From: a virus
IMG/VR virus record: IMGVR_UViG_3300039310_000155
Span: 1 to 25,556 of that record
Length of the DNA: 25,556 nt
Strand: one strand, 5' to 3'
The notes below the pieces were generated by a model. That model was not told the origin of the DNA. It did no database searches and saw only the letters and a list, made by a program, of their open reading frames with translations. The translations under genes and the position numbers were made by a program. Below, in pieces: positions 2,547 through 24,875 of the stretch; the first letter of the stretch is position 1; every line of letters begins with the position of its first letter.

Positions 2547-3209
2547 TCAGAGCGGCATCGCCGCCTGCCCCAATGGCACCGCTCCGTATCCTCCGCCCAG
2601 CACCATTCTTCCCACCTGGCTCGCCTGCACGCGGGTCAAACCAATGCCCGCTTCCTTCCCCACGCGGAAGCCGACAATGCGGTAGCGCGCGCCCACGTAG
2701 CGCACCGCATCGGACTGAAGCGTTCCGCCGAAATCATCCGGAGGCATTCCCAGCGGCCGGCGCGGCAGCGTCGAGCGCGCGCCGCCTTCGCCCGCCAGAT
2801 GCCCTCGAAAGTGATAGCCCGCCAGCGGATTGCGGTTGCCCCACTTCATGCCCATGGGGCGTTCCTCGAAAACATGATCCGAGCCGCCAAAAAATCCCTC
2901 GAGCATTTCGCCTGTGGCAATCAGGATGGGCTGCTCGCCGTACTTCTTGAGCTTGCGCTTGGCGTAGTCGTCGCTGAGCGGCGCAAACGGCCCGATCGGC
3001 GTCGCCTGGTTACTTATCTCCCGCATCACGTTGGTCGAGAGCCGCGTTTGCACGTTCCACCAGTAGCCTTGCGGGAAGCCCGGCGCCGCTTCGCGGAAGT
3101 CCTCGATCGGCGTCTTCAGCCGGAACAGGATCGGCTTTGTCCCCGGATACCGCTTGCCATCGGCGTCGACGGTGTAGACGTTCATCGCGAATTTGAGAAA
3201 GCCTGGCAT
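2547..3209 (-). CDS. Virion morphogenesis protein, Mu G-like
   Basis: 220 residues. The central segment FAPLSDDYAKRKLKKYGEQP then ILIATGEMLEG matches the layout of phage virion morphogenesis/tail completion proteins (Mu gpG, P2 gpS type), which read W-x-PLS-x-x-Y-x-x-x-K followed by IL-x-x-TG-x-L. A later PRRPLGMPPDDF corresponds to the family's PxRPFLG motif. These proteins act at the head-tail joint. The start at 3209 lies directly in repeat DNA without a ribosome site; ATG 3185 (MNVYTVDADG) is the alternative. Neighbours are a head-tail connector candidate upstream and a tail terminator candidate downstream, consistent with a connector role. Confidence 0.65.
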   Translation of the reverse strand: MPGFLKFAMNVYTVDADGKRYPGTKPILFRLKTPIEDFREAAPGFPQGYWWNVQTRLSTNVMREISNQATPIGPFAPLSDDYAKRKLKKYGEQPILIATGEMLEGFFGGSDHVFEERPMGMKWGNRNPLAGYHFRGHLAGEGGARSTLPRRPLGMPPDDFGGTLQSDAVRYVGARYRIVGFRVGKEAGIGLTRVQASQVGRMVLGGGYGAVPLGQAAMPL

Positions 3210-3317
3210 TTGCGATTTCCGATTTTGGCCATTTGCGATTTGCGATTGATGATTTGCGATTTCGGGTCCGGATCGCCCCTCCGGCGCCAGACGCTTTTAA
3301 TCACAAATCACCAATCC
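3210..3317. repeat. GCAAATCGCAAAT-type repeat tract
   Basis: Imperfect copies of ATTTGCGATTT and related units fill the gap and supply the leader of the G-like gene. Other copies: 736-769, 2484-2540, 8571-8600, 8847-8875, 16770-16791, 20034-20059, 20667-20683, 21199-21230, 22963-22986, 24208-24234. Confidence 0.75.
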
Positions 3318-5750: not shown

Positions 5751-6602
5751 TCAGTGCTTCTCGAAGCTCACACTCAAATTGGCGGCCGCGCCGCTGGTGG
5801 CCGTGGCATCGCTGACCGTAATCAGGTCGCCCGCAGCCACGCTGGCGGTATGGCTGGTATCGCTGCAGGTGGCGGTCGTGTGCACAAGCGAGCAGGTGAT
5901 GGACGTTGCGGCGCCGTTCTTGTTCACGGTCAGCACATCGGTGAGCGAGCCGCCCGGGGCCGTCCCTGCGTAGACGACGAAATTCTCAAGCGTGCCGGAA
6001 GTCGGCATCACAGCCGCGCTCACCGCGCTCGTATTCGAGCTGCACGCTATGGCCGCTCCGCCCAGGCCGAACACGTAGTTGGTGGCGTTCGAGCCCACCG
6101 TGCCCGAGCAGAATCCGGAAAAGGTCGCGGCGCCGTTCACGGTCACCGTGCCGGTGGTAGGCACCGCGCTCGACATGGCGATGCAGCCGGTGATGTTGCC
6201 GGCCGAAGTCGTGCAGGTATAGAGCGGGCTGGCAGCCAGCGCCGTGCCCTGCGTGCCGGTATGCGAGAGCGACCCACCGGAGCTCCAGTAGATGTACTCG
6301 GTTGCGGACGCCAGGGTCATCGTGCCTGCCGTGATCGTTTGCATCGCCGTGCTGCTGTAGTTGGCGATCGACCCGGCCGTGTAGGTCAGCGTCATGCCGG
6401 TGGCCGCCCAGGAAACGCTGGGCTGGCCAAAGTGCGCGCTGAAGGCGTTGTAATTCGCCGAATTCGCTGCGCTGGGCCCGGCAGTGCCCTGGCCGAAGGC
6501 GGCGGTCGGCACCAGGCAGCAGGCAGTCGCCAGCAGGCCCACAATCACGGCTGTCATTCTGAGGGAAGCGAAGAATCTCGCTCTGAGCAATTGGCTTTTC
6601 AT
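5751..6602 (-). CDS. Exported serine/threonine/alanine-rich phage protein
   Basis: 283 residues. ATG 6602 is supported by AAGGAG about 9 bases upstream. Residues 1-37 look like a Sec signal peptide: basic n-region, hydrophobic core AVIVGLLATACCLVPTAA and a possible cleavage after AFG. The n-region (LRARFFASLRMT) is the translation of an interspersed repeat. The rest is low in charge and rich in Ala, Ser, Thr and Gly, with paired cysteines (LYTCTTSAGNITGC, TSITCSLVHTTATCSD) and repeated beta-strand patterns, resembling surface or fibre-like beta proteins. It lies between the decoration and capsid genes. I do not recognise a family; an envelope-located exclusion protein or a virion surface protein are both possible. 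Confidence 0.7.
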   Translation of the reverse strand: MKSQLLRARFFASLRMTAVIVGLLATACCLVPTAAFGQGTAGPSAANSANYNAFSAHFGQPSVSWAATGMTLTYTAGSIANYSSTAMQTITAGTMTLASATEYIYWSSGGSLSHTGTQGTALAASPLYTCTTSAGNITGCIAMSSAVPTTGTVTVNGAATFSGFCSGTVGSNATNYVFGLGGAAIACSSNTSAVSAAVMPTSGTLENFVVYAGTAPGGSLTDVLTVNKNGAATSITCSLVHTTATCSDTSHTASVAAGDLITVSDATATSGAAANLSVSFEKH

Positions 6603-6688
6603 AGTCTTTTCTCCTTCACAACAGTGTCAGTGCCCACCGACACAAACGGCGGGCGGGTGCGTGGCGGAAAGGCGTGCGGCGCCGGCCG

Positions 6689-7168
6689 TCACGCCTTGTA
6701 GAGATACGGCATCACCAGAACGCGGATCACGTCGCCCTGGGCGCCCGCCGCGTCGATCGCGATCCCCACCACGTTGTAGGTGGTCCCCGCCTGTGCCGGG
6801 CAGGTTTCGACGTAGCCCGAGGTGGCGGCGACGATCACCACAGCGCCGCGGGCGATTGGGGCATTGGCCACCACGCGCGAGATCCCGAAAATGCGCGTGC
6901 GGATGTTCCGCCCCTGGCCGGTCGTGGGAATCGACCCGGCAGGCCAGGCGGTGCCGGAGGTCAGTGTGTACTGGCCACCCGAATAGTCCGCCATGGCATC
7001 CGGCAGAATCGATTCCTGCGCGATGCCCAGGAACGCCGCATTCGCGCCCGCAGGATGGACACAGCCATCCGTGTAGTTCGTCGCGCGTGCGCTCAGGCAG
7101 GTGAATTTGCCGATTTCGACGTTTTCGTCAAGATGGAAACTTTGGTCGATCGCAGTGATGTCACTCAT
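6689..7168 (-). CDS. Capsid decoration/cement-like protein (DUF2190-like)
   Basis: 159 residues; the start at 7168 has GGAGG 7 bases upstream. The pattern is a small beta protein with repeated glycine turns: an N-terminal ITAIDQSFHLDENVEIGKF, a middle RTRIFGISRVVANAPIARGA followed by VIVAATSGYVETC, and the end VVGIAIDAAGAQGDVIRVLV. The last phrase, a 'G-x-A-x-x-A-x-x-x-G-D-x-x-x-V-x-V' pattern, is typical of DUF2190-type head decoration proteins that stabilise the shell. Position between the protease/scaffold and the capsid gene agrees. The ribosome site abuts a long inverted repeat at 7188-7248. Confidence 0.65.
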   Translation of the reverse strand: MSDITAIDQSFHLDENVEIGKFTCLSARATNYTDGCVHPAGANAAFLGIAQESILPDAMADYSGGQYTLTSGTAWPAGSIPTTGQGRNIRTRIFGISRVVANAPIARGAVVIVAATSGYVETCPAQAGTTYNVVGIAIDAAGAQGDVIRVLVMPYLYKA

Positions 7169-7187
7169 CGAAAATCCTCCATTGAGT

Positions 7188-7248
7188 CATTGAGTCATTG
7201 GGCCATTTGGCCATCGGGCCAATAGCAAAATGGCCCGATGACTCAATG
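7188..7248. repeat. Inverted repeat before the decoration gene
   Basis: Arms of 21 bases (7188-7208 and 7228-7248, one mismatch; core GAGTCATTGGGCCATTT) around 19 bases. The 3' arm on the minus strand ends 6 bases before the GGAGG of the decoration gene. A related unit lies at 9771-9800. Confidence 0.8.
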
Positions 7249-7259
7249 GCTAAATCCGC

Positions 7260-8831
7260 TTACTCTTCCTCTTCCTGCGAGGCCTCGACGGCCATAACCA
7301 CTTCCTCGGAGTACTGCCGCCACAACTCGGGCTTGGCCTTGGTGATTTCCGAAAGCGCTACGCTCAGGGAGCATTTGTTCTCTTTGGCGTAGGCATTCAC
7401 TTCCGCCATCAGCGATTGCTGTGCGGTGGGCGTTTCGCCCGCGCCGGCATGTCCGTGTGCGCGCAGATCCACGACGGGCTTGGCTTCCTCCAGCAGCGCC
7501 GTGAACCCCGCCGCATCGCTGAGCGCCAGCTTGAATGCCGCGCCACGGTTCTTCGGCAGAACCTTTCCCGCCTTGATCGCCGCCTCGACTTTGCGCTCCG
7601 CCTCCTGCGCCGCCAGCACGTCCGAGAAGCGCACTTTGCCGGCATCCGCCAGCTCGCCGCACTTCGCGGTATTCAGCTTGCCGTCTGCGATGGCTTCCGA
7701 AAGCGCCGCAAAGCGGTCTACGGGCGCCTCGATGCCGCGCTTCACCATGGCAGCGGCCTCGAGCAGCGATTTCCCCGCCATGCCGATTTCAACAAGCACA
7801 GCGGCTTCGCTGGCCGTGCGGTCGCACCCGGTTACGTGCTGCCCGACGTACTCCTTCAGATGATCGCCATCGATTTCCCCAATTTTCCCGTCAGGACCGT
7901 GCACTTCGTGGGTGCCATCGGCGGCGCACTTCAATTGTAGTTTTCCCATTGTTTTGCCTCCTGGTTGGTCGAATCCAACCGAGATTTGCGGGCCGCCATT
8001 CCGGCCCTCGGAATTTACCGGCGCAGGAACGTGCACCTGGCCGAGACTTACAAACACTTTTTGGCTGCCTGCTTCCTCGGACAGGTGGAGCTGTGGCATC
8101 TCCTCGAGGAACGGCTTGTTGACCAGCGCCACGCTGGTGAGCACCGTGCCCACAGGCTTCCCCGTCACTTTATCCTTCGCGCCCCAGCGGATCGCCGGGC
8201 TGATGTAGCGGTATTCCCTGGCCGCAATCAATTCCCGCGCGCGCGCTGTGGGATCGAACCATCCCCAGAGAATCTGCTTTCCCGAGCCGTTGAAATTCTC
8301 CGGCGCGTCGAGCTTCACAATCCGTCCGGCCGAGAGCACGGGGCCGCCCGTTCCGTAAGGCACTTCGGAGGCGTGCTCGTAATCCACATTGATTTCGCCC
8401 GTGGGCTTGGCGGCAAAGTTCCTGCGAATCTCCTCGAGGTCGTCCAGCCCGACCGAGAACTCTTTCTCCGCGCCTTTCCATTGGCCGGTCACGGCGATGG
8501 GGATACGGATCAGGCCGTCCTTCGCCGCCTCGCCCAGGAGCACCATGAACCGAGGCCCGGTGTCATTGGCGATTTGCGATTTCTGGTTTGCGATTTCCCC
8601 GGCCTGTTCCCTATTCCCTGTTCCCCCTCCGGGCCAGTCCATCCCCTCGCTCTTGTAAAGCGCCCGGAGCCGCGTCTTCGCGCCTTCCTTGTCCGGCCCA
8701 GCATAGGGCTGGCCGCGGTAATTCGAAAACAAGGCCGCGTGGGCCGCCGCCATCAAGCGATGGTCCGGCTTCCCATCCTCGCCGGAAACCGGCAGATGCT
8801 TGCCTTCAGGAACGAGATAGCGCACCGCCAT
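7260..8831 (-). CDS. Head maturation protease/scaffold, Mu protein I-like
   Basis: 523 residues from ATG 8831 (AAGGA site 7 bases upstream). Residues 1-65 form a small helical domain (HRLMAAAHAALFSNYRGQPY, then RLRALYKSEGMDWP). Residues about 66-95 are repeat-derived linker (GTGNREQAGEIANQKSQIAN). Residues about 96-290 match Mu-type prophage protease I: EINVDYEHAS carries the conserved Asp-Tyr-x-His, with later ILWGWFDPTARARELIAARE and YRYISPAIRW, then VALVNKPFL. The C-terminal half, starting near an internal ATG (MGKLQLKCAADG), is helical and acidic, as expected of the scaffold; in Mu the scaffold Z is made from an internal start of gene I. It would process and shape the prohead. Confidence 0.85.
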   Translation of the reverse strand: MAVRYLVPEGKHLPVSGEDGKPDHRLMAAAHAALFSNYRGQPYAGPDKEGAKTRLRALYKSEGMDWPGGGTGNREQAGEIANQKSQIANDTGPRFMVLLGEAAKDGLIRIPIAVTGQWKGAEKEFSVGLDDLEEIRRNFAAKPTGEINVDYEHASEVPYGTGGPVLSAGRIVKLDAPENFNGSGKQILWGWFDPTARARELIAAREYRYISPAIRWGAKDKVTGKPVGTVLTSVALVNKPFLEEMPQLHLSEEAGSQKVFVSLGQVHVPAPVNSEGRNGGPQISVGFDQPGGKTMGKLQLKCAADGTHEVHGPDGKIGEIDGDHLKEYVGQHVTGCDRTASEAAVLVEIGMAGKSLLEAAAMVKRGIEAPVDRFAALSEAIADGKLNTAKCGELADAGKVRFSDVLAAQEAERKVEAAIKAGKVLPKNRGAAFKLALSDAAGFTALLEEAKPVVDLRAHGHAGAGETPTAQQSLMAEVNAYAKENKCSLSVALSEITKAKPELWRQYSEEVVMAVEASQEEEE

Positions 8832-8878
8832 GGTTGTTCCTTTCGATCGCAAATCGCAAATCGCCAATCACAAATGCT

Positions 8879-9163
8879 TCACCGTTTCTTCCCCTGCGCC
8901 CGCGCCGCGGCGGCATCCTCGCGCCGGTCTGCGGCAGCTTGATCGAGGCGCTCGCTGGCGCGGTCTTCGGCGGCCGCTGTCTTGGCGGCGGCCTTGGCAT
9001 CGGCCTTAGCGTCGGAGCCCCATTCATGCGGCGCCCACACTGGCGTTGGATAGACGGCGTCGCCAAACTTCGCCGCTTCCGCTTCAGTCAGCTCGAGGTC
9101 GATCCCCGGCATGACGAATCGACGCTCTCTCTCGATCCTTTTTCTCACCGTGTACTGCGCCAT
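8879..9163 (-). CDS. Small charged protein of the head region
   Basis: 94 residues. ATG 9163 is preceded by GGAGG at 4 bases. The first 45 residues (AQYTVRKRIERERRFVMPG, then DLELTEAEAAKFGDAV) follow a pattern common in short phage head-region proteins, 'x-Y-x-V-x-x-x-I...PG...L-T-x-x-x-A'. The rest is an Ala/Asp/Arg/Lys-rich helix (AKADAKAAAKTAAAEDRASE), probably extended or disordered. It lies immediately upstream of the protease/scaffold gene. No function can be assigned. Confidence 0.65.
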   Translation of the reverse strand: MAQYTVRKRIERERRFVMPGIDLELTEAEAAKFGDAVYPTPVWAPHEWGSDAKADAKAAAKTAAAEDRASERLDQAAADRREDAAAARAQGKKR

Positions 9164-9224
9164 AGCGCCTCCTGTTGTGTTGTAGGGCCGAAGAGCCTTC
9201 GGCCCGGCCGAACGCTGTTCGGCC

Positions 9225-9752
9225 CTACCGGTAAATCACGCTCACCGCCACCGGGGCCGATGTGCCGTAAGAACTGCAGGCGAACACAAACTCCGTCGCC
9301 TGGCCGAAGCCGAGCGCCACTGTCGCGCTCGCCGAGCTCGTGGTTACAGACGTTGTGCCAAGCTGCTCGATCAGCGTCCAGGCATTCACCGTGCCGGTGG
9401 TCGCAGTCACCGAGACGGCGGAGCCGAGTGTCAGAAAATTCGTGCCGTCGTAAGTCGTTTTCGCCTGCACGGTGCACGTTCCGTAGCTGCCGGAAACCGT
9501 GCCGAAAGTCCACTGGATTTGAGCCTCGCGGGCGCTCGTGGTTGGCGTGGAAGTCGTCGTTGCCGTGGCCGTGGTGATGGTTATCGCCGGCGTGTCCACA
9601 ATCACCCCGGTGGGACGCGGCTGCACGTTCGCGGCGGAGGCAGTGGGCAGGTGAGCAGTCGGCAGTAGGCAGTAGAAAACCAGGACAAGAAGAACCAACA
9701 CACTCACCCACGACTTAATTCGATTTTCCAGTTTCCAGTTTCCAGTTTCCAT
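9225..9752 (-). CDS. Exported beta-rich phage protein
   Basis: 175 residues from ATG 9752 (GGAGG 9 bases upstream); ATG 9761 lies too close to that site. Residues 1-45 form a signal peptide with core VSVLVLLVLVFYCLLPTA and likely cleavage in TASAA. The n-region (METGNWKLE) and the end of the signal (PTAHLPTASA) are translations of interspersed repeats. The mature part is Thr/Ser-rich and beta-rich, with QIQWTFGTVSGSYGTCTVQA and FLTLGSAVSVTATTG, close to the style of Ig-like virion proteins, ending VAVSVIYR. It is unusual for a protein in a head module to be exported. No family recognised. Confidence 0.65.
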   Translation of the reverse strand: METGNWKLENRIKSWVSVLVLLVLVFYCLLPTAHLPTASAANVQPRPTGVIVDTPAITITTATATTTSTPTTSAREAQIQWTFGTVSGSYGTCTVQAKTTYDGTNFLTLGSAVSVTATTGTVNAWTLIEQLGTTSVTTSSASATVALGFGQATEFVFACSSYGTSAPVAVSVIYR

Positions 9753-9803: not shown

Positions 9804-10784
9804 CTAAATGCTCTCTCCCTCCTCGCATTCACAGGCTTCTTTGCCCAAGCAGATGGCGCTTAAGTCTTCGCCAGGAGTCACCGTCTGCCCATTCGCGTCG
9901 ATACAGGGATCGCAGGAATTCTTTTCCATGGCGCAGATACGAATCGTGCGCAGCTCGTAGCCCTGCTTGGCGAGCTCCTGCCGGATCTCGTCAAAAGCAT
10001 CGCCACGCCCGGCGCGGAAAGTCCCGCGCGCCGCGCTGTCCGCGATCGTGTCGCAGAAGCCGTCCGCGTTGTCAGCGATCGCGCCGTACAGCTCATCCTC
10101 AAGCTCGTCCACGTCCTGGTCTGTGACGTCCGGGCCGTACTTCTTCAGTGCTTCGATCCCAGCGTTGGCCGCATCGTTCCCGATCGTCTCGTCAAAGAAC
10201 TGCGCCGCGATGTCGGCGAATAACCCTCCGGACTTCTTAGGGGCTAGGGATTGGAGATTAGGGATTAGGGGAACATCCGCCGCCAGCGCCTGGCGCCCCG
10301 CAAAAGCCGCTGCCCGCCGCGCGCCTTCCAGCCGCTGAGATTCCTCGCGCACCGCCTGCCTGCCGGTTTGATAGAGCGGATCGAGAATCGCCTGTAGGGC
10401 CGAACTGCGTTCGGCCCCCGTATTCAACACGACACCGCTGGGCCTTTTCCCGGCAATCAGCGCCTTGGCCATCTGTGAGGCCATGGCGCGAATCGTGCGC
10501 GGCCGTTCCGCCCGCAGCGCCGCCGCGATCTTGGCCTCCGCCCCGCGCAGCGCTTTCCAATGCGAGGGGAAATCCACATGCGCTTCGTGCGGATAAACAA
10601 ATCGCAAATGCTCCGGATCGCCTTCCTTGAAGAACGGAGACGGATGCGCGCGAGGAGCGACAAGCGGCTTCGCGGCGGCAGATAGGCAGGTCGGCAGGTC
10701 GGCAGATCGGGCCGCAAAAAGGCTCCTGGTATCCAGGTCCATCAACAGTATCGCCGGGTTAAACATTTGCCGACTGGCCATCAT
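9804..10784 (-). CDS. Head morphogenesis protein, Mu gp30/F-like
   Basis: 326 residues. The C-terminal part matches the Mu F-like minor head family: GYELRTIRICAMEKNSCDPC continues into IDANG, the 'D-x-x-x-C-x-x-C-x-x-x-x-G' zinc-type motif, after a long helical region with RQAVREESQRLEG and a Thr-rich adapter. Such proteins sit at the portal and help start head assembly and DNA ejection. Three repeat insertions are translated in frame: residues about 27-40 (SADLPTCLSAAAKP), NTGAERSSALQAIL, and DVPLIPNLQSLAP. ATG 10784 has an AAGAG site about 5 bases upstream; ATG 10781 is the alternative. It is separated from the portal by a plus-strand gene. Confidence 0.75.
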   Translation of the reverse strand: MMASRQMFNPAILLMDLDTRSLFAARSADLPTCLSAAAKPLVAPRAHPSPFFKEGDPEHLRFVYPHEAHVDFPSHWKALRGAEAKIAAALRAERPRTIRAMASQMAKALIAGKRPSGVVLNTGAERSSALQAILDPLYQTGRQAVREESQRLEGARRAAAFAGRQALAADVPLIPNLQSLAPKKSGGLFADIAAQFFDETIGNDAANAGIEALKKYGPDVTDQDVDELEDELYGAIADNADGFCDTIADSAARGTFRAGRGDAFDEIRQELAKQGYELRTIRICAMEKNSCDPCIDANGQTVTPGEDLSAICLGKEACECEEGESI

Positions 10785-10791
10785 TTTTCTC

Positions 10792-10838
10792 TTGACAAAC
10801 CCAAGGCCATGGGATAGACTCTAACTGCATCTCGGAGG
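10792..10838 (+). promoter_or_regulatory. Promoter and ribosome binding site of the plus-strand moron gene
   Basis: TTGACA at 10792-10797 (perfect -35) and TAGACT at 10815-10820 (4 of 6 for -10) are separated by exactly 17 bases. GGAGG at 10834-10838 lies 5 bases before ATG 10844. This sigma-70-type promoter lies in the 59-base gap between two divergent genes and points against the late operon. Confidence 0.7.
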
Positions 10839-10843
10839 TGCCT

Positions 10844-11212
10844 ATGTACAACAGAGCCATCATGAGTTTTCAGCGCATCAGTTATGGGCCAGCGACCATC
10901 ACCACCATGATTGGCAACGAGCCCGGCTACTGCGAAGGTGGCCGAATGCTCGTTTCCATCGCAGGGCCGGGGCTCCCAAACATCCGCGTCACAGACTCGG
11001 GTATCGAGCCGCTCAGCCCCGATGACATGCCGGGCAACGGCATGGGCGTGATCGTGTTCGGTCACTCGAAAGCCGACCGTCCGCGTCTGGGGCTGGACGC
11101 TGCTGCGACCGGGGCCATCGGGGGCCGCAGACGCACGGCTAGAAAAATTCATGCAGCTCGCGAGAACGGCAAAAAAGGTGGACGGCCCAAGCAGCATAAA
11201 GCGATCCTTTAG
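10844..11212 (+). CDS. Plus-strand moron-like gene, unknown protein with AT-hook-like tail
   Basis: 122 residues from ATG 10844; a GTG at 10838 overlaps the ribosome site and is rejected. This is the only plus-strand gene seen, and it sits antisense inside the late operon between portal and gp30-like gene, with its own promoter. Its TAG (11210-11212) overlaps the portal's TAA (11209-11211) tail to tail. The N-terminal 90 residues are Gly/Pro-rich with beta patterns (GGRMLVSIAGPGLPNIRV, GMGVIVFGHS) and no recognised family. The C-terminus is strongly basic with KKGGRPK, an AT-hook-like core, so DNA or RNA binding is possible. Own promoter, reverse orientation and no role in head assembly are the marks of a moron, a gene expressed from the prophage state. 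Confidence 0.75.
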   Translation: MYNRAIMSFQRISYGPATITTMIGNEPGYCEGGRMLVSIAGPGLPNIRVTDSGIEPLSPDDMPGNGMGVIVFGHSKADRPRLGLDAAATGAIGGRRRTARKIHAARENGKKGGRPKQHKAIL

Positions 11213-13404
11213 AACTTTATAAACACCGGGCTGCCGTCGATGGTGACCCAGTGGCCACCTTCCTCGGCAACCTGGCCTTCAAATTTCTTAGCCTCTTGCA
11301 CTGCTCCCCAGCGGTGATCTTCGACAGCTTTCGGATTAGAGCCGCTGCGCGGAGCGGATTTGGCAAGACTCACTCCCTTCCGGTTTGCAGCGATCCCGGC
11401 TTTCCATTCCTCCGGGCTGACCCCGGCTGGTGGTGACTGCTTCTCAAGTTGGTCCAGCTTGGCGTTCGCCTGGGCCACAGTGAGCTTGCCGCCGGTCACG
11501 CTGTGATAACCTCCCATGACGCCCTGTCCCCACCTGCCGAGGTAAACTGGGGGATGCGAGCTAACTGTCATCCCGCTTGACTCGCCGTACTGTGGGTCCG
11601 GAATCCGCTTGGCAAATGCGTAGTTGTAGGCCACTGTGTTACCACGGTCTAGGCCGGCAAGCGTGACCGCTGTTTCGCTGGCCTGAGTTTTCGCCGACTG
11701 CCCACTGCCGACTGCCGACTGCCCGCCGCCGGTCGCCTGCCGCATGCGCTCTTTGGCGGGCACTGCCATGCGCCCGCTCGGCAGCGCTTTCGAAGTGTCG
11801 CCTGGCTGCGTGTCCCCGGCCGGGGGCCGAACGCTGTTCGGCCCTACGGCTGCCGGCTGCCGGCTGCCGGCTGCTTTCTGCGGCTGCCCCTGGGCATTCT
11901 GAACCGGGATCTCCTCGTCTCCGGTTTCCATTTCCTGGATGCGCTCGACAACGGGCGCATACCGAACCCGGGCGGTCTTGCCCTTGAGCGGCAAGCCGAC
12001 CTTGCGGCGAATCCAGTTTTCCGTGTCATCGTCGGGCTGGAGGAGGTCGTTATCGTATTTCGCCGCGTCTTTGCAGGCTTCCAGCAATTCCAGCGGGTTG
12101 GTGACGATGATATTGGGAGTCACGAGGCGCGGATAGAGACTCTTCTGATCGGCTCCCAGATTGTAGTTGTAGTCGACCAGGCGTCGGATCGAGCTGTTGG
12201 TGATCGTCTCATCAACCTTGCGGGAAACCGCTTCGAGCGAGAGATAGAAGAAATCGCGCATCGAGCCGCCCAGCGCGCGGCTGCCGGTTTGCGTTGTGCC
12301 CAGCGTCAGGAAGTTGGCCAGCACGGAACGCATGATCATCTCGCTGTGATGCTGGATGGATTCATGCGGATCGCGAATGCGCCCGGTAATGCCGGTGAGG
12401 GCGAATTCCCAGCCGTTAGGCAAAGAAAGCCCGGTGCTCTCGTGCGCGGAAAGCATTTGGACCCACTGCTGCGACGCCTTGCGGTCTTCGGCGGAGACGT
12501 TCACGCCTTGCTTGATCGTGGGCACGCCCAGGCCGTTGCGCTCGATCGAGATGGCGTCGATGCGGTAGATCTGCGACTTCAGAAACCAGTGCTGGTAAGC
12601 GGCGCGCAGCACGGAGCGGCCGTAGAAATACGCGCCTTCCTGCTCGTTCACGAAGTAGGCGAGCTTTTCCGCGGGCACCAGGACATTGACAAAGTTGTTA
12701 CCTCGATAACCGTATTGCTCCAGGAAAAGCAAAGTCTCGCCATCATCATCAACGTGGTAGCGATAGAACGTGTAAGGCAGGCGGGGAGCGAGCTTGCGGA
12801 GACGCACCTTGTCTCCGTCAACGTGCCAAAGATCCTCGTGCGCCGCGCAACCGAAATCGAGGCAAAGTAGCGCATTCTCCTTCACCGTCTCGAAGTTCTG
12901 AGTGACCCACTGCCCGGTGCTGGTGGGGGATTCGAGCCCGCCGAAAAGGTTCTCTTTGGCGAATTGGGCGAGTTCTTTCGCGAGCGCGAAGCCCTGCTCA
13001 CCCTCTTTCACGCCCGGAACGATTTGCGATTCCGCCGCGCGGATAGGCAGCTTGCAGGCCATCAGCGCCGCGCGCACGTCGGCGTCTGAGCGCCGCATCT
13101 TTTCGTAAACCAGGAAGGCTGAGCGGCCTTCCATCACCGGGTTGTATTCGCCCAGGTCGCGCAGGAATCCGGCGAAGTTCGCAGTTCCCACGGCGCCTCT
13201 CAGCGACGTGTCGGTTTTCTGGCCTGTTCCCTGTCCGCTGTTCCCTGTTCCCTGCACTTGGGGCTCAGGAACAGATCCACCGTCTGGCCCGGCAGCGGGG
13301 TTCAGGCCGACGTCATTGCCAATCGGGCCGCCCGGAAAGAGCGTGACCATCGGATAACTCGCCCCGGGGGTCAGCACTTGGCGAATTGTCTCTAAAAACG
13401 ACAT
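11209..13404 (-). CDS. Portal protein, Mu gp29-like (DUF935), with C-terminal extension
   Basis: 731 residues from ATG 13404 (MSFLETIRQVL); an earlier in-frame ATG at 13482 would translate inverted-repeat DNA. Residues about 75-490 are the DUF935 portal: GEYNPVMEGRSAFLVYEKMR, DADVRAALMACKLPIRAA, then GRSVLRAAYQHWFLKSQIYR, IERNGLGVPTIKQG and SRALGGSMRDFFYLSLEAV. It forms the ring through which DNA enters. Beyond residue about 520 there is an extension of roughly 200 residues, interrupted by translated repeats (AAVGPNSVRPPAGD; GGGQSAVGSGQSAKT), ending in a small domain with EGGHWVTIDGSPVFIKF. The usual family size is near 500. A near-perfect inverted repeat sits 10 bases before the start and no clear ribosome site is seen. 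Confidence 0.9.
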   Translation of the reverse strand: MSFLETIRQVLTPGASYPMVTLFPGGPIGNDVGLNPAAGPDGGSVPEPQVQGTGNSGQGTGQKTDTSLRGAVGTANFAGFLRDLGEYNPVMEGRSAFLVYEKMRRSDADVRAALMACKLPIRAAESQIVPGVKEGEQGFALAKELAQFAKENLFGGLESPTSTGQWVTQNFETVKENALLCLDFGCAAHEDLWHVDGDKVRLRKLAPRLPYTFYRYHVDDDGETLLFLEQYGYRGNNFVNVLVPAEKLAYFVNEQEGAYFYGRSVLRAAYQHWFLKSQIYRIDAISIERNGLGVPTIKQGVNVSAEDRKASQQWVQMLSAHESTGLSLPNGWEFALTGITGRIRDPHESIQHHSEMIMRSVLANFLTLGTTQTGSRALGGSMRDFFYLSLEAVSRKVDETITNSSIRRLVDYNYNLGADQKSLYPRLVTPNIIVTNPLELLEACKDAAKYDNDLLQPDDDTENWIRRKVGLPLKGKTARVRYAPVVERIQEMETGDEEIPVQNAQGQPQKAAGSRQPAAVGPNSVRPPAGDTQPGDTSKALPSGRMAVPAKERMRQATGGGQSAVGSGQSAKTQASETAVTLAGLDRGNTVAYNYAFAKRIPDPQYGESSGMTVSSHPPVYLGRWGQGVMGGYHSVTGGKLTVAQANAKLDQLEKQSPPAGVSPEEWKAGIAANRKGVSLAKSAPRSGSNPKAVEDHRWGAVQEAKKFEGQVAEEGGHWVTIDGSPVFIKF

Positions 13405-13414
13405 CGGGTTTTCT

Positions 13415-13502
13415 GGTAGCGCAGACCGCCGTGTTTGCGGTCTGCGGTTCTTCCTGACCCGTGGACAAGCCGCAGACTGCAAACACGGCAGTCTGCGCTA
13501 CC
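13415..13502 (-). repeat. Long inverted repeat abutting the portal start
   Basis: Arms of 33 bases (13415-13447 and 13470-13502) match with two differences, both allowing G-U pairs, around a 22-base loop. The core reads GCAGACCGCC / GGCAGTCTGC. Partial relatives lie at 4572-4604 and 17828-17911. It ends 10 bases before ATG of the portal on the transcribed strand. Confidence 0.85.
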
Positions 13503-16124: not shown

Positions 16125-16473
16125 ATTTGCACTCTCGGCAATTGCTGATCAGATCGTTCACTCGCGCGCTGGTGGTTTGGATGGCCAGCCACACGTCCTT
16201 GTTGGTCTGCGCCTGCTCGCGGGCGTAATCGCGAAAGCCTTCCGCCACCGCACGCATCGATTCGCCCTGGACTTTCATGCCTTCGCCGAAGCTGGCCAGC
16301 GCCTGAGCCTGCGCCTGGAGCAGCGAATTCATTTCCTTCTGATTGTCGGCGCTCTGCTGGATCGCCTGGATCACTCGCCCGCTGGCCTGGCCTCGCGAGA
16401 AAAAAAGGTAGCCCAGGGCGATGCAGGCGAAGATAAACCCGATCACTCCAACTGCGGCCAAAATCGCGGTCAT
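16087..16473 (-). CDS. Membrane-anchored coiled-coil protein in DUF2730 position
   Basis: 128 residues. One N-terminal membrane helix (AAVGVIGFIFACIALGYLFF) followed by a Gln/Ala-rich coiled coil (VIQAIQQSADNQKEMNSLLQ; QAQALASFGEGMKVQG) and a short tail with CRECKYAEH. Its ATG overlaps the preceding gene's TGA as ATGA, so translation is probably coupled. Mu-like phages carry a DUF2730 protein with this layout at this place, just before the winged-helix and gp27 genes. I infer the match from layout, not from residues. It may act at the inner membrane during lysis. Confidence 0.6.
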   Translation of the reverse strand: MTAILAAVGVIGFIFACIALGYLFFSRGQASGRVIQAIQQSADNQKEMNSLLQAQAQALASFGEGMKVQGESMRAVAEGFRDYAREQAQTNKDVWLAIQTTSARVNDLISNCRECKYAEHQRSAPQGA

Positions 16474-16799
16474 GCTCGTCCCTCCAGGCGGTGGGCAGGC
16501 CGGCAGTCGGCAGGCGGCAGTCGGCAGTCGGCAGGTGGGCAGTCGGAAAGAACCGCGAACCCCCGCTGCTCCCTCGCCCAGATCGCCAGTTGCAGCCGGC
16601 TGTGCATACCTCGCCGATCGAAGATCGACTGCAAGTGGTTCTTCACCGTCTGCTCGCTTATTCCCATGATTCCGGCAATCTCGGCGTTGCTAAACCCGGC
16701 AGCAACGAAGCCTGCCACTCGGGTCTGCGTTGACGTCAGCCCATCCAGCAAGAGGGCAGGGTTGGGGAATTTCAAATTTGAGATTTGAGATCCCGACAT
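16470..16799 (-). CDS. Stand-alone LuxR-type helix-turn-helix protein
   Basis: 109 residues from ATG 16799. Residues about 20-75 are a clear LuxR/GerE DNA-binding domain: LTSTQTRVAGFVAAGFSNAE, then IAGIMGISEQTVKNHLQSIF and RRGMHSRLQLAIWA, including the usual 'S-N-x-E-I-A-x-x-M-x-I-S-x-x-T-V-K-x-H'. No receiver or ligand domain precedes it. The last 25 residues (DCPPADCRLPPADCRPAH) are the translation of a GTCGGCAG-type repeat. An upstream extension to 16925 would overlap the preceding gene and is rejected. No ribosome site is seen at 16799 as repeat DNA fills the leader. A late-gene regulator role is an inference. Confidence 0.75.
   Translation of the reverse strand: MSGSQISNLKFPNPALLLDGLTSTQTRVAGFVAAGFSNAEIAGIMGISEQTVKNHLQSIFDRRGMHSRLQLAIWAREQRGFAVLSDCPPADCRLPPADCRPAHRLEGRA
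16492..16546. repeat. Tandem GTCGGCAG repeat, inside the end of the LuxR-type gene
   Basis: Imperfect tandem copies of the 8-base unit GTCGGCAG (and GCGGCAGTC) run inside the coding frame. Similar tracts: 9642-9671, 11696-11733, 21811-21847, 22453-22484, 23223-23275, 24337-24362, 25106-25139. Confidence 0.85.
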
Positions 16800-16840
16800 C
16801 TGCCGATCTACCGGCCTCCGTGTCTCTGTGCCTCTGTGGT

Positions 16841-17452
16841 TCACTTGCGCCCCGCCCTTGCGATTAAATAACCGGCCGCCGCCGAAATCACAATCGTCTC
16901 CGCGCTGTGCTTCACTCGCGTCCACACGCTGCCGCCCTTGGCCGCTTTCACCGCCGCATCCCGTTCTTTGGTGAGCGACGTGATCTTGTCCTCATCGATC
17001 GAGGTTTGCATCTGCGCGCCGGTCAGCTTCTCGCTGCACTCTTTGCAGGTAATGAGTTCATCGAAAAGAGGCCGCATGTCAGCGGCGGGGATCTGCATGC
17101 CGGTAATCGTGGGCGGCGTGCCTGGAGCTGCGCCTGCCGGCGCCGGCGTCGTTACTGTCGTGACGGGCGCCGGCAGGGTCTGGGGGAGAAAAGTTGGAAT
17201 CTCGCGCACAATTTGCGCGGGCGTAACAGCCTGCGCCTTAACTTGCTCGAGCGCCGCCACACGCTCTTTGAGGTCGCGAACCACGAGCTCCGATTGCGAT
17301 TTCAAGTCCGCCTGGTTGGCGTGCTCGGCTTTCAGCGTGGCATCCAGCACGGCGCGATCCACGAGGGCGCCGTGCCACTCGTGCACCACAACGCCCAGGG
17401 CGAGCCCCAGCAGCGCCGCAACAGCCAAAGCCGCTTTGTGCCCTTCAGTCAT
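16841..17452 (-). CDS. Spanin-like membrane protein with coiled coils
   Basis: 203 residues. N-terminal membrane helix at residues 7-25 (AALAVAALLGLALGVVVH), coiled coil at about 40-75 (SELVVRDLKERVAALEQVKA), Pro/Thr/Ala linker, ITGMQIPAADMRPLFDELIT, a CKEC motif, a second helix-forming segment (EDKITSLTKERDAAVKAAKG) and a hydrophobic C-terminal segment (IVISAAAGYLIA). Rz-type inner membrane spanins have the N-terminal membrane helix plus periplasmic coiled coil, and this gene lies next to a holin-like gene, so that role is likely. The C-terminal hydrophobic stretch is unusual for a spanin. A structural membrane protein is the alternative. Confidence 0.55.
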   Translation of the reverse strand: MTEGHKAALAVAALLGLALGVVVHEWHGALVDRAVLDATLKAEHANQADLKSQSELVVRDLKERVAALEQVKAQAVTPAQIVREIPTFLPQTLPAPVTTVTTPAPAGAAPGTPPTITGMQIPAADMRPLFDELITCKECSEKLTGAQMQTSIDEDKITSLTKERDAAVKAAKGGSVWTRVKHSAETIVISAAAGYLIARAGRK

Positions 17453-21795: not shown

Positions 21796-22457
21796 GAGAG
21801 AAGTCCTTGGCCGGCAGTCGGCAGTCGGCAGTCGGCAGTCGGCAGATCGGGGGCCCGTCTCGGCTCCCCCGGGGTTTCGCCAGCGCCAAAGGCCAATCCC
21901 TGCGGCTGCTGTAGCCAGCGGTTGTACCGAAGCTGCGGACCTCGCCGGAACCAGCGCGATGGCTCCTGCTTGGATCTCGAGGTTCGGAAGATTTCGATGC
22001 AGCGGACACGGCAGTTTCGCCCCACGCGCACCAGCCAGGCACGTTCGAGGCGCATAAACGGTCCCTCATTGTCGAGCCACATCGTGTGAAACCACACGAC
22101 CGCCTCGCGCGCGATCCAAGCCGCGGTCATAAGCAGTTGCAGCTTCTGCTGCTGATTGAGAGAAATATACGGAGGGTCGAGAATCACAAAGTCGAAACTG
22201 TCACAGCCGAATGGAGGGAGCCACGCATCCGCGAGGACGTCTGGCCGCGTCTGCGGGTCGATGTCAAGCCGCAGCCCAAAGCGAGCGTGGCCGCCGAACA
22301 TCTGCAGAACGGACTTGCCCTTTGTGATCTCGAGGAGCAGGCTCTCGACCTGGGGAGGAAACGCCCAGCCGTCGTGTCGTGAAGTCCGCCTCCGGGTGCA
22401 CCATAGCACCTCGATGGGGAACTTCTTGCTCGCAACGGATTGTTCCTGCTTCGCCAT
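21792..22457 (-). CDS. DNA methyltransferase, DPPY type
   Basis: 221 residues from ATG 22457 (MAKQEQSVASKKFP); upstream in-frame ATGs lie in repeat DNA and an overlap with the preceding gene. Motif I-like VLQMFGGHARFGLRLDID near residue 60 for S-adenosylmethionine, then DVLADAWLPPFGCDSFDF, and the catalytic motif IV FVILDPPYISL near residue 95, typical of amino-methyltransferases acting on adenine (or N4-cytosine). RRGPQLRYNRWLQQPQG near the end suits this phage methyltransferase group. No restriction enzyme is next to it. It would protect phage DNA or alter host gene control. The last residues (PTADCRLPTAGQ) are translated repeat DNA. Confidence 0.8.
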   Translation of the reverse strand: MAKQEQSVASKKFPIEVLWCTRRRTSRHDGWAFPPQVESLLLEITKGKSVLQMFGGHARFGLRLDIDPQTRPDVLADAWLPPFGCDSFDFVILDPPYISLNQQQKLQLLMTAAWIAREAVVWFHTMWLDNEGPFMRLERAWLVRVGRNCRVRCIEIFRTSRSKQEPSRWFRRGPQLRYNRWLQQPQGLAFGAGETPGEPRRAPDLPTADCRLPTAGQGLLS

Positions 22458-23193: not shown

Positions 23194-23222
23194 AATTCAC
23201 CATTCACAATTCAGAATTTCCG

Positions 23223-23275
23223 ACCTGCCGACTGCCGACTGCCGACTGCCTACTGCCGACTGCCGACTGCCTACT
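23223..23275. repeat. Tandem GTCGGCAG/CTGCCGAC tract
   Basis: Six to seven imperfect copies of CTGCCGACTGCC fill the gap between two early genes. Units follow each other directly with no unique spacers, so this is not a CRISPR array. Confidence 0.85.
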
Positions 23276-23894: not shown

Positions 23895-24188
23895 CTAGGC
23901 CGCGCCAGCCCGCCCGGCCTGCTCCGAGAGTTCCTGCACGCGGCGCTTGAGCTTCGAGATCTCGCTCCGCTGCTCCGAGAGCTCGCGCCGATAGCCCACG
24001 AGCGTTCCTTCGAGCTTCCCCATCTGCGCGCGCAAGTCCGACATGGAAGTGCACAGCTTGCCGATCATATCGACGTTGCCGGGGGACATCAGGCGAGGCA
24101 CGAAGAGTGCGTCCTCGGCGATCGCATCGATAATCTCGATGGGACTGGCCTGCAAAACCGTCACTTGCTCGCCGTTTCCATTTATCAT
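23895..24188 (-). CDS. Coiled-coil early protein
   Basis: 97 residues from ATG 24188 (GGGAGTG upstream), preferred over an upstream in-frame start in repeat DNA. N-terminal EQVTVLQASPIEIIDAIAED is compact; residues 50-90 (MGKLEGTLVGYRRELSEQRS, then KLKRRVQELSEQAG) are a clear leucine-heptad coiled coil. It lies next to Gam. Possible partner or regulator; no family recognised. Confidence 0.6.
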   Translation of the reverse strand: MINGNGEQVTVLQASPIEIIDAIAEDALFVPRLMSPGNVDMIGKLCTSMSDLRAQMGKLEGTLVGYRRELSEQRSEISKLKRRVQELSEQAGRAGAA

Positions 24189-24344
24189 AAGAAGCACTCC
24201 CTGCGGAATCTCAAATCTCAAATTTCAAATCTCAGCCGGCCGCTCGACCCCGCCGAGCCTGGCGGGGCTGCGATCATTCTCGGATACCAGGAGTCCTCGT
24301 TTCTCCTGCTGGCTCTGGGCCGGCAGGGCCCAGCGGCCGACTGC

Positions 24345-24875
24345 CTACTGCCGACTGCCTACTTCCGTTTCCTGCTCCGCCTCCCGCACCAGGGCCTCGA
24401 CCAGGCGGTCGATCTCGCTGTTGTCCGCCTCGATGATGACGGAGTCGGTGCCACGATCCAGCGTGACGCCAAGCTGCTTCAGAACTTTCTCGCCCATCAG
24501 GAGCAGGGCTTTGGCCAGCGGCTTGCGCTCGACTTTGACCAGGGTCGGGTAAAGCTCCGGGAAAAGCTCCTGTATTTTGGCGGCAAGCTGTTCATTGTCC
24601 GCCCATTCGGCGCGGTCTTTGGCCTTGCGATAGCCCACCGTAATACCGCACAGCAATAGGCTCTTAGGCTTCTGGAAAAGCTCGGGAGCTTCCTGGATGG
24701 CCTGGAAAAGAGCGGCGTGGGCTTCGCCGGCGCGCTCGACAGCGCGCTTGATGCTCTCCAGGTAGATTTTGCGAATTTTGGCGGCTTCGGTCTGCATCTC
24801 GCCGACTTTGTCCGCCAGCGCCGCCCGCTGCTTCGAGTACTCGCGCGTCAGTCTTTCGATTTCCGCTAAGTTCAT
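24345..24875 (-). CDS. gam: Host-nuclease inhibitor, Mu Gam-like
   Basis: 176 residues; ATG 24875 has GGAGG 6 bases upstream. The layout is that of Mu Gam: long N-terminal helices (EIERLTREYSKQRAALADKV; EMQTEAAKIRKIYLESIKRA), a core of KPKSLLLCGITVGYRKAKDR, then LVKVERKPLAKALLLMGEKV and LGVTLDRGTDSVIIEAD. Mu Gam binds DNA ends as a dimer, is a relative of Ku, and shields phage DNA from host exonucleases. It stands in its usual place after the MuB-like gene. The final residues (QETEVGSRQ) are repeat-coded. Confidence 0.85.
   Translation of the reverse strand: MNLAEIERLTREYSKQRAALADKVGEMQTEAAKIRKIYLESIKRAVERAGEAHAALFQAIQEAPELFQKPKSLLLCGITVGYRKAKDRAEWADNEQLAAKIQELFPELYPTLVKVERKPLAKALLLMGEKVLKQLGVTLDRGTDSVIIEADNSEIDRLVEALVREAEQETEVGSRQ

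Follow-up and report, generated by a model that had tools for sequence, protein, structure and literature searches.

A lone plus-strand gene with a GGRP tail between the portal and gp30-like genes of a Mu-like phage

orf122, a small gene located between the portal and gp30-like genes of a Mu-like phage, is tentatively assigned as a genuine moron (a phage accessory gene); its product would be a small, antitoxin-like protein that probably binds DNA and lacks a cognate toxin. Judged from its sequence, we give this assignment slightly less than an even chance. The gene is carried by the IMG/VR record IMGVR_UViG_3300039310_000155, the whole of which (25,556 bases) is called the window below. Morons are a known kind of gene. 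What is new here is the combination of an orphan N-terminal part with a C-terminal tail otherwise found mostly on antitoxins in Acidobacteriota. A lone phage moron is thus linked to a tail that many bacterial antitoxins carry, and a gene otherwise filed as unknown gains testable roles, namely DNA binding by the tail and neutralisation of a DUF4160-type toxin.

The gene, its expression signals and its coding strand

Inspection of the genes over the whole window placed every convincing gene except orf122 on the minus strand, in agreement with the first-pass annotation, which had called it the only plus-strand gene. The minus-strand genes comprise a long gene running off the left end and genes for a Gp77-type adaptor, a capsid-E-like protein, a scaffold, a Mu-like protease, the gp30-like protein, the portal, a terminase, a LuxR-type regulator and Mu Gam. 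The regulator (16470-16925, minus strand) has a LuxR/GerE-type helix-turn-helix (PF00196, 8.2e-14), here in a Mu-like phage. Protein comparison revealed relatives of the window portal in Acidobacteria MAGs, which suggests the host phylum; the host is probably a member of the Acidobacteriota from soil.

Table 1 Features of the window around orf122 and its insertion site
Feature	Position	Strand	Remarks
gp30/Mu F-like minor head protein	9804-10784	-	
Octamer tandem array	10676-10710		One edge of the insert
Insert of about 1 kb	about 10706-11712		As compared with the relatives in which portal and gp30 form one ORF; edges approximate
Opposing 138-aa ORF	10781-11197	-	Judged a shadow ORF
Predicted sigma-70-type promoter, TTGACA-17-TAGACT	10792-10820	+	TTGACA 10792-10797; TAGACT 10815-10820
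Imperfect 14-bp dyad	10800-10813		In the promoter spacer
Shine-Dalgarno sequence, GGAGG	10834-10838	+	5 nt ahead of the orf122 ATG
orf122	10844-11212	+	122-aa orphan small protein; ATG 10844, TAG 11210-11212
C-terminal GGRP tail module	11099-11197	+	orf122 residues 86-118
Mu-type portal protein	11209-13482	-	PF06074, 2.3e-36; TAA 11209-11211
Portal C-terminal extension	11209-11712	-	Final 167 residues
Heptamer tandem array	11693-11723		Other edge of the insert

The annotation had also described a promoter, a GGAGG and a tail-to-tail stop overlap with the portal, and all three are present (Table 1): the TAG of orf122 overlaps the TAA of the portal on the other strand. The promoter is assigned from its consensus match alone, i.e. 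it is a predicted promoter. No other site on either strand of the 25.6 kb reaches 10 of the 12 promoter matches. Markov shuffles gave a mean of 0.48 such sites per window, and none of 60 shuffled windows combined a site with a Shine-Dalgarno sequence and an ORF of at least 60 aa. The dyad in the promoter spacer, CCCAAGGCCATGGG, could be an operator; its chance probability is about 0.016 within the promoter and 0.08 over 70 nt, a weak signal that may be due to chance.

The region between portal and gp30 also contains an open frame on the minus strand. If this 138-aa ORF were the real gene, orf122 would be its shadow. It starts 12 nt after the portal stop, where an AAAGGA site may serve as a Shine-Dalgarno sequence, and its stop overlaps the start of gp30 (ATGA). 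However, its codon score is negative in two calculations (-20 and -12 bits), which give the plus frame +25.8 bits (from the GTG start) and +30 bits, respectively. Since orf122 and this ORF are in codon register, 39% of synonymous recodings are expected to leave the opposite frame open by chance. The homology of the orf122 tail, described below, falls in the plus frame and is the strongest sequence argument for it. The minus-strand ORF, which has no Pfam match, was rejected as a gene on the basis of its codon score and of this homology; that it is the genuine gene appears extremely improbable. Two shadow plus-strand ORFs (69-512 and 24165-24659), both opposite good minus-strand genes and without Pfam match, reach codon scores similar to that of orf122, so codon use supports the plus frame but is no proof by itself.

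The plus frame being preferred, the RNA rather than the protein might still be the functional product. orf122 and the portal gene are convergent with overlapping stops, and no good terminator is found directly 3' of orf122. Plus-strand RNA could then oppose late transcription at the portal 3' end and tune the late operon. The good Shine-Dalgarno sequence and codon use argue against this possibility, as does the tail homology, which indicates that the protein has been selected somewhere. We consider it very improbable.

An insert between the portal and gp30-like proteins

In five relatives (L005, L125, L191, L192 and L193), a single ORF of 840 to 1257 aa encodes both the portal and the gp30/Mu F-like protein. 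No gene lies between the fused parts and orf122 is absent from the site. In the window, the fusion is thus split by an insert of about 1 kb, as a moron would be expected to do. This insert contains the C-terminal extension of the portal, orf122 and 26 codons at the start of gp30. Judging from these five relatives, fusion of the portal with the Mu F-like protein would be the ancestral state. No match to the insert DNA was found in phage records. The possibility that the insert had been flipped between the related arrays in which it ends was considered and rejected, since inspection of the reading frames showed that flipping restores no portal-gp30 fusion.

The window portal is 77-78% identical to those of L002-L004, 43-58% to most others and 33% to that of L125. 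For its C-terminal extension, ending in HWVTIDGSPVFIKF, searches of viral and phage collections gave no relatives, and a search of 396 Acidobacteriota genomes gave no convincing one (best E 2e-4). On the other side of the insert, the gp30-like protein has no Pfam match itself. From residue 27 onward it shares 75% identity with the fused part of L125; that part in turn shows weak matches to Mu F and VG15.

The portal looks mosaic (11600-12400, minus strand). Its body is near L002-L004, and about residues 470-590 are near L005, with similarity to L005 running up to about residue 590 and including 49 bases at 94% identity. The fused ORF of L192 (positions 5869-9642 of that record) encodes, in 1257 aa, the portal, a histidine-phosphatase domain in the linker (PF00300, 4.4e-23) and the gp30/Mu F-like domain. 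The linker thus tolerates extra sequence, which marks it as a site at which phages of this group take up additional genes or domains.

Like phage morons, orf122 is a single accessory gene with its own predicted promoter, opposite to the late operon and absent from relatives. The first-pass reading of an antisense moron is supported on these points: the promoter, the strand and the absence from the five relatives with the fused ORF. An insert may also have brought in a tailed gene that is now functionless, orf122 being a captured or decaying fragment. The lack of a cognate toxin, of an N-terminal homologue and of counterparts in relatives would fit such a history. Nevertheless, the frame is intact, the promoter and Shine-Dalgarno sequence are present and codon use is phage-like, and we regard decay as unlikely.

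The GGRP tail and the possible role of orf122

The annotation had assigned the orf122 product to no recognised family. This holds for Pfam (E <= 1), PHROGs, NCBIfam, PADLOC and PDB sequences, and no direct homologue was found in viral contigs, genome contigs, phage and plasmid records or PDB sequences. The homology search that it had called for was successful for the C-terminal tail. Residues 1-84 match no family or collection searched. Over the 396 Acidobacteriota genomes, nearly all of the best orf122 matches (E <= 1e-4) fall in the tail, and scattered weaker N-terminal matches look like noise. A single-sequence AlphaFold prediction (pLDDT 40.7) was too poor for the fold to be read.

The tail belongs to a module that recurs at C-termini with the pattern G..GG...[ST]..K..A...NG..GGRP. 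A model of the tail built without orf122 recovered its residues 86-118 with 53.5 bits (E 1.1e-18) and reported none of 5000 shuffles. With a pattern for ENGKKGGRPK, more than 100 phage stretches were found. The match forms the C-terminus of small proteins in 23 of 120 stretches and is internal in most others. A stricter tail pattern gave one more phage contig, in which the N-terminus is unrelated. Proteins other than antitoxins also carry the tail, and it can form an internal linker, which counts against an antitoxin-like role. AT-hook proteins bind the minor groove through an RGRP core. The end of orf122 had been described as AT-hook-like; it is basic, its residues 112-115 read GGRP instead of RGRP, and the recurring module is found on DUF2442 antitoxins and other small proteins. 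The KGG repeat (PF10685) was matched by one other tailed protein (0.0034), and orf122 has no Pfam match to it at E <= 1.

Of the 396 Acidobacteriota genomes, 38 contain the tail at E <= 1e-5. Among the matches listed, a sample set by the chosen seed sequences, 30 distinct proteins carry the tail at the C-terminus; 19 of these match DUF2442 and 17 have a DUF4160-like ORF directly upstream. Two other tailed proteins look HicB-like, one from a weak Pfam match (E 0.038) and one by eye. DUF2442 proteins of Acidobacteriota (L133, L139, L177, L180, L190 and others) commonly end in the GGRP tail, which lies outside the Pfam DUF2442 model. The tail sequence is named in no paper of the literature searched and, as far as those papers show, this tail widespread on bacterial antitoxins is undescribed.

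The DUF4160/DUF2442 pair corresponds to dhiTA, experimentally shown to be a functional type II toxin-antitoxin system, in which the antitoxin lowers the activity of its own promoter (PMC8198452). The pair is likewise regarded as a toxin-antitoxin system in a study of plasmids (PMC12724237). orf122 shares the tail, the small size and the probable host phylum with the DUF2442 antitoxins that bear the GGRP tail, which are often about 140 aa long. Unlike them, it has neither a DUF2442 domain nor an adjacent DUF4160 gene. The idea that it is a divergent DUF2442 protein was rejected by hhalign, which gave a probability of 0.5 where a left-out member used as control reached 99.5. No toxin gene adjoins orf122, and upstream of its promoter lies only the 5' end of gp30, on the other strand. 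With neither DUF2442 in residues 1-84 nor a toxin gene as neighbour, orf122 is not classified among the DUF2442 antitoxins. It also resembles small phage proteins, zinc-ribbon-like or orphan, that carry the tail at the C-terminus (for example L054, L061 and L075) and in which the N-terminal domain is different or missing. The L054 gene also points opposite to its neighbours.

The presence of the tail on DUF2442 antitoxins points to an antitoxin-like or regulatory role rather than specifically to phage exclusion. In a classical effector moron, the N-terminal part would alter the host or block superinfecting phages, and the tail would add only charge or stability. The own promoter, the position of the gene and the orphan N-terminal part are compatible with an effector. 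In contrast, no known exclusion or defence family is matched (PADLOC), and the tail resides mostly on antitoxins and other small, possibly nucleic-acid-related proteins. An effector of this type seems unlikely to us. The exclusion of other phages suggested by the annotation may still occur; it is neither refuted nor specifically supported.

For the antitoxin-like moron that we favour, the following course can be proposed. The insert would have brought orf122 into a linker that ancestrally joined the portal to the Mu F-like protein. The housekeeping-type promoter could allow expression while the late operon is silent. The basic tail may contact nucleic acid, and the orphan N-terminal part may bind a host or prophage partner. 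The protein may also repress its own promoter, as antitoxins do. While the gene, its promoter, the insertion and the tail homology can be read in the DNA itself, we infer expression in the lysogen, DNA and partner binding, and a benefit to phage or host. More speculatively, the GGRP tail might be an interchangeable nucleic-acid-binding module of antitoxins and lone phage proteins. orf122 might then be a solitary antitoxin of a new type, which would protect the prophage either by neutralising a toxin of the host or by repressing a host toxin-antitoxin locus, an improbable scenario at present.

Short tandem arrays

The window contains 49 short tandem arrays that have a period of 7 or 8 and are built from a large variety of units, as compared with 0-3 in shuffles (for example 23220-23275, 21812-21850, 16494-16546 and 3208-3262). 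The sequence between genes, 14% of the window, holds the centres of 21 of them. Arrays of period 7 or 8 are also present in most relatives and are densest in three Acidobacteria MAG contigs (2.3-3.5 per kb).
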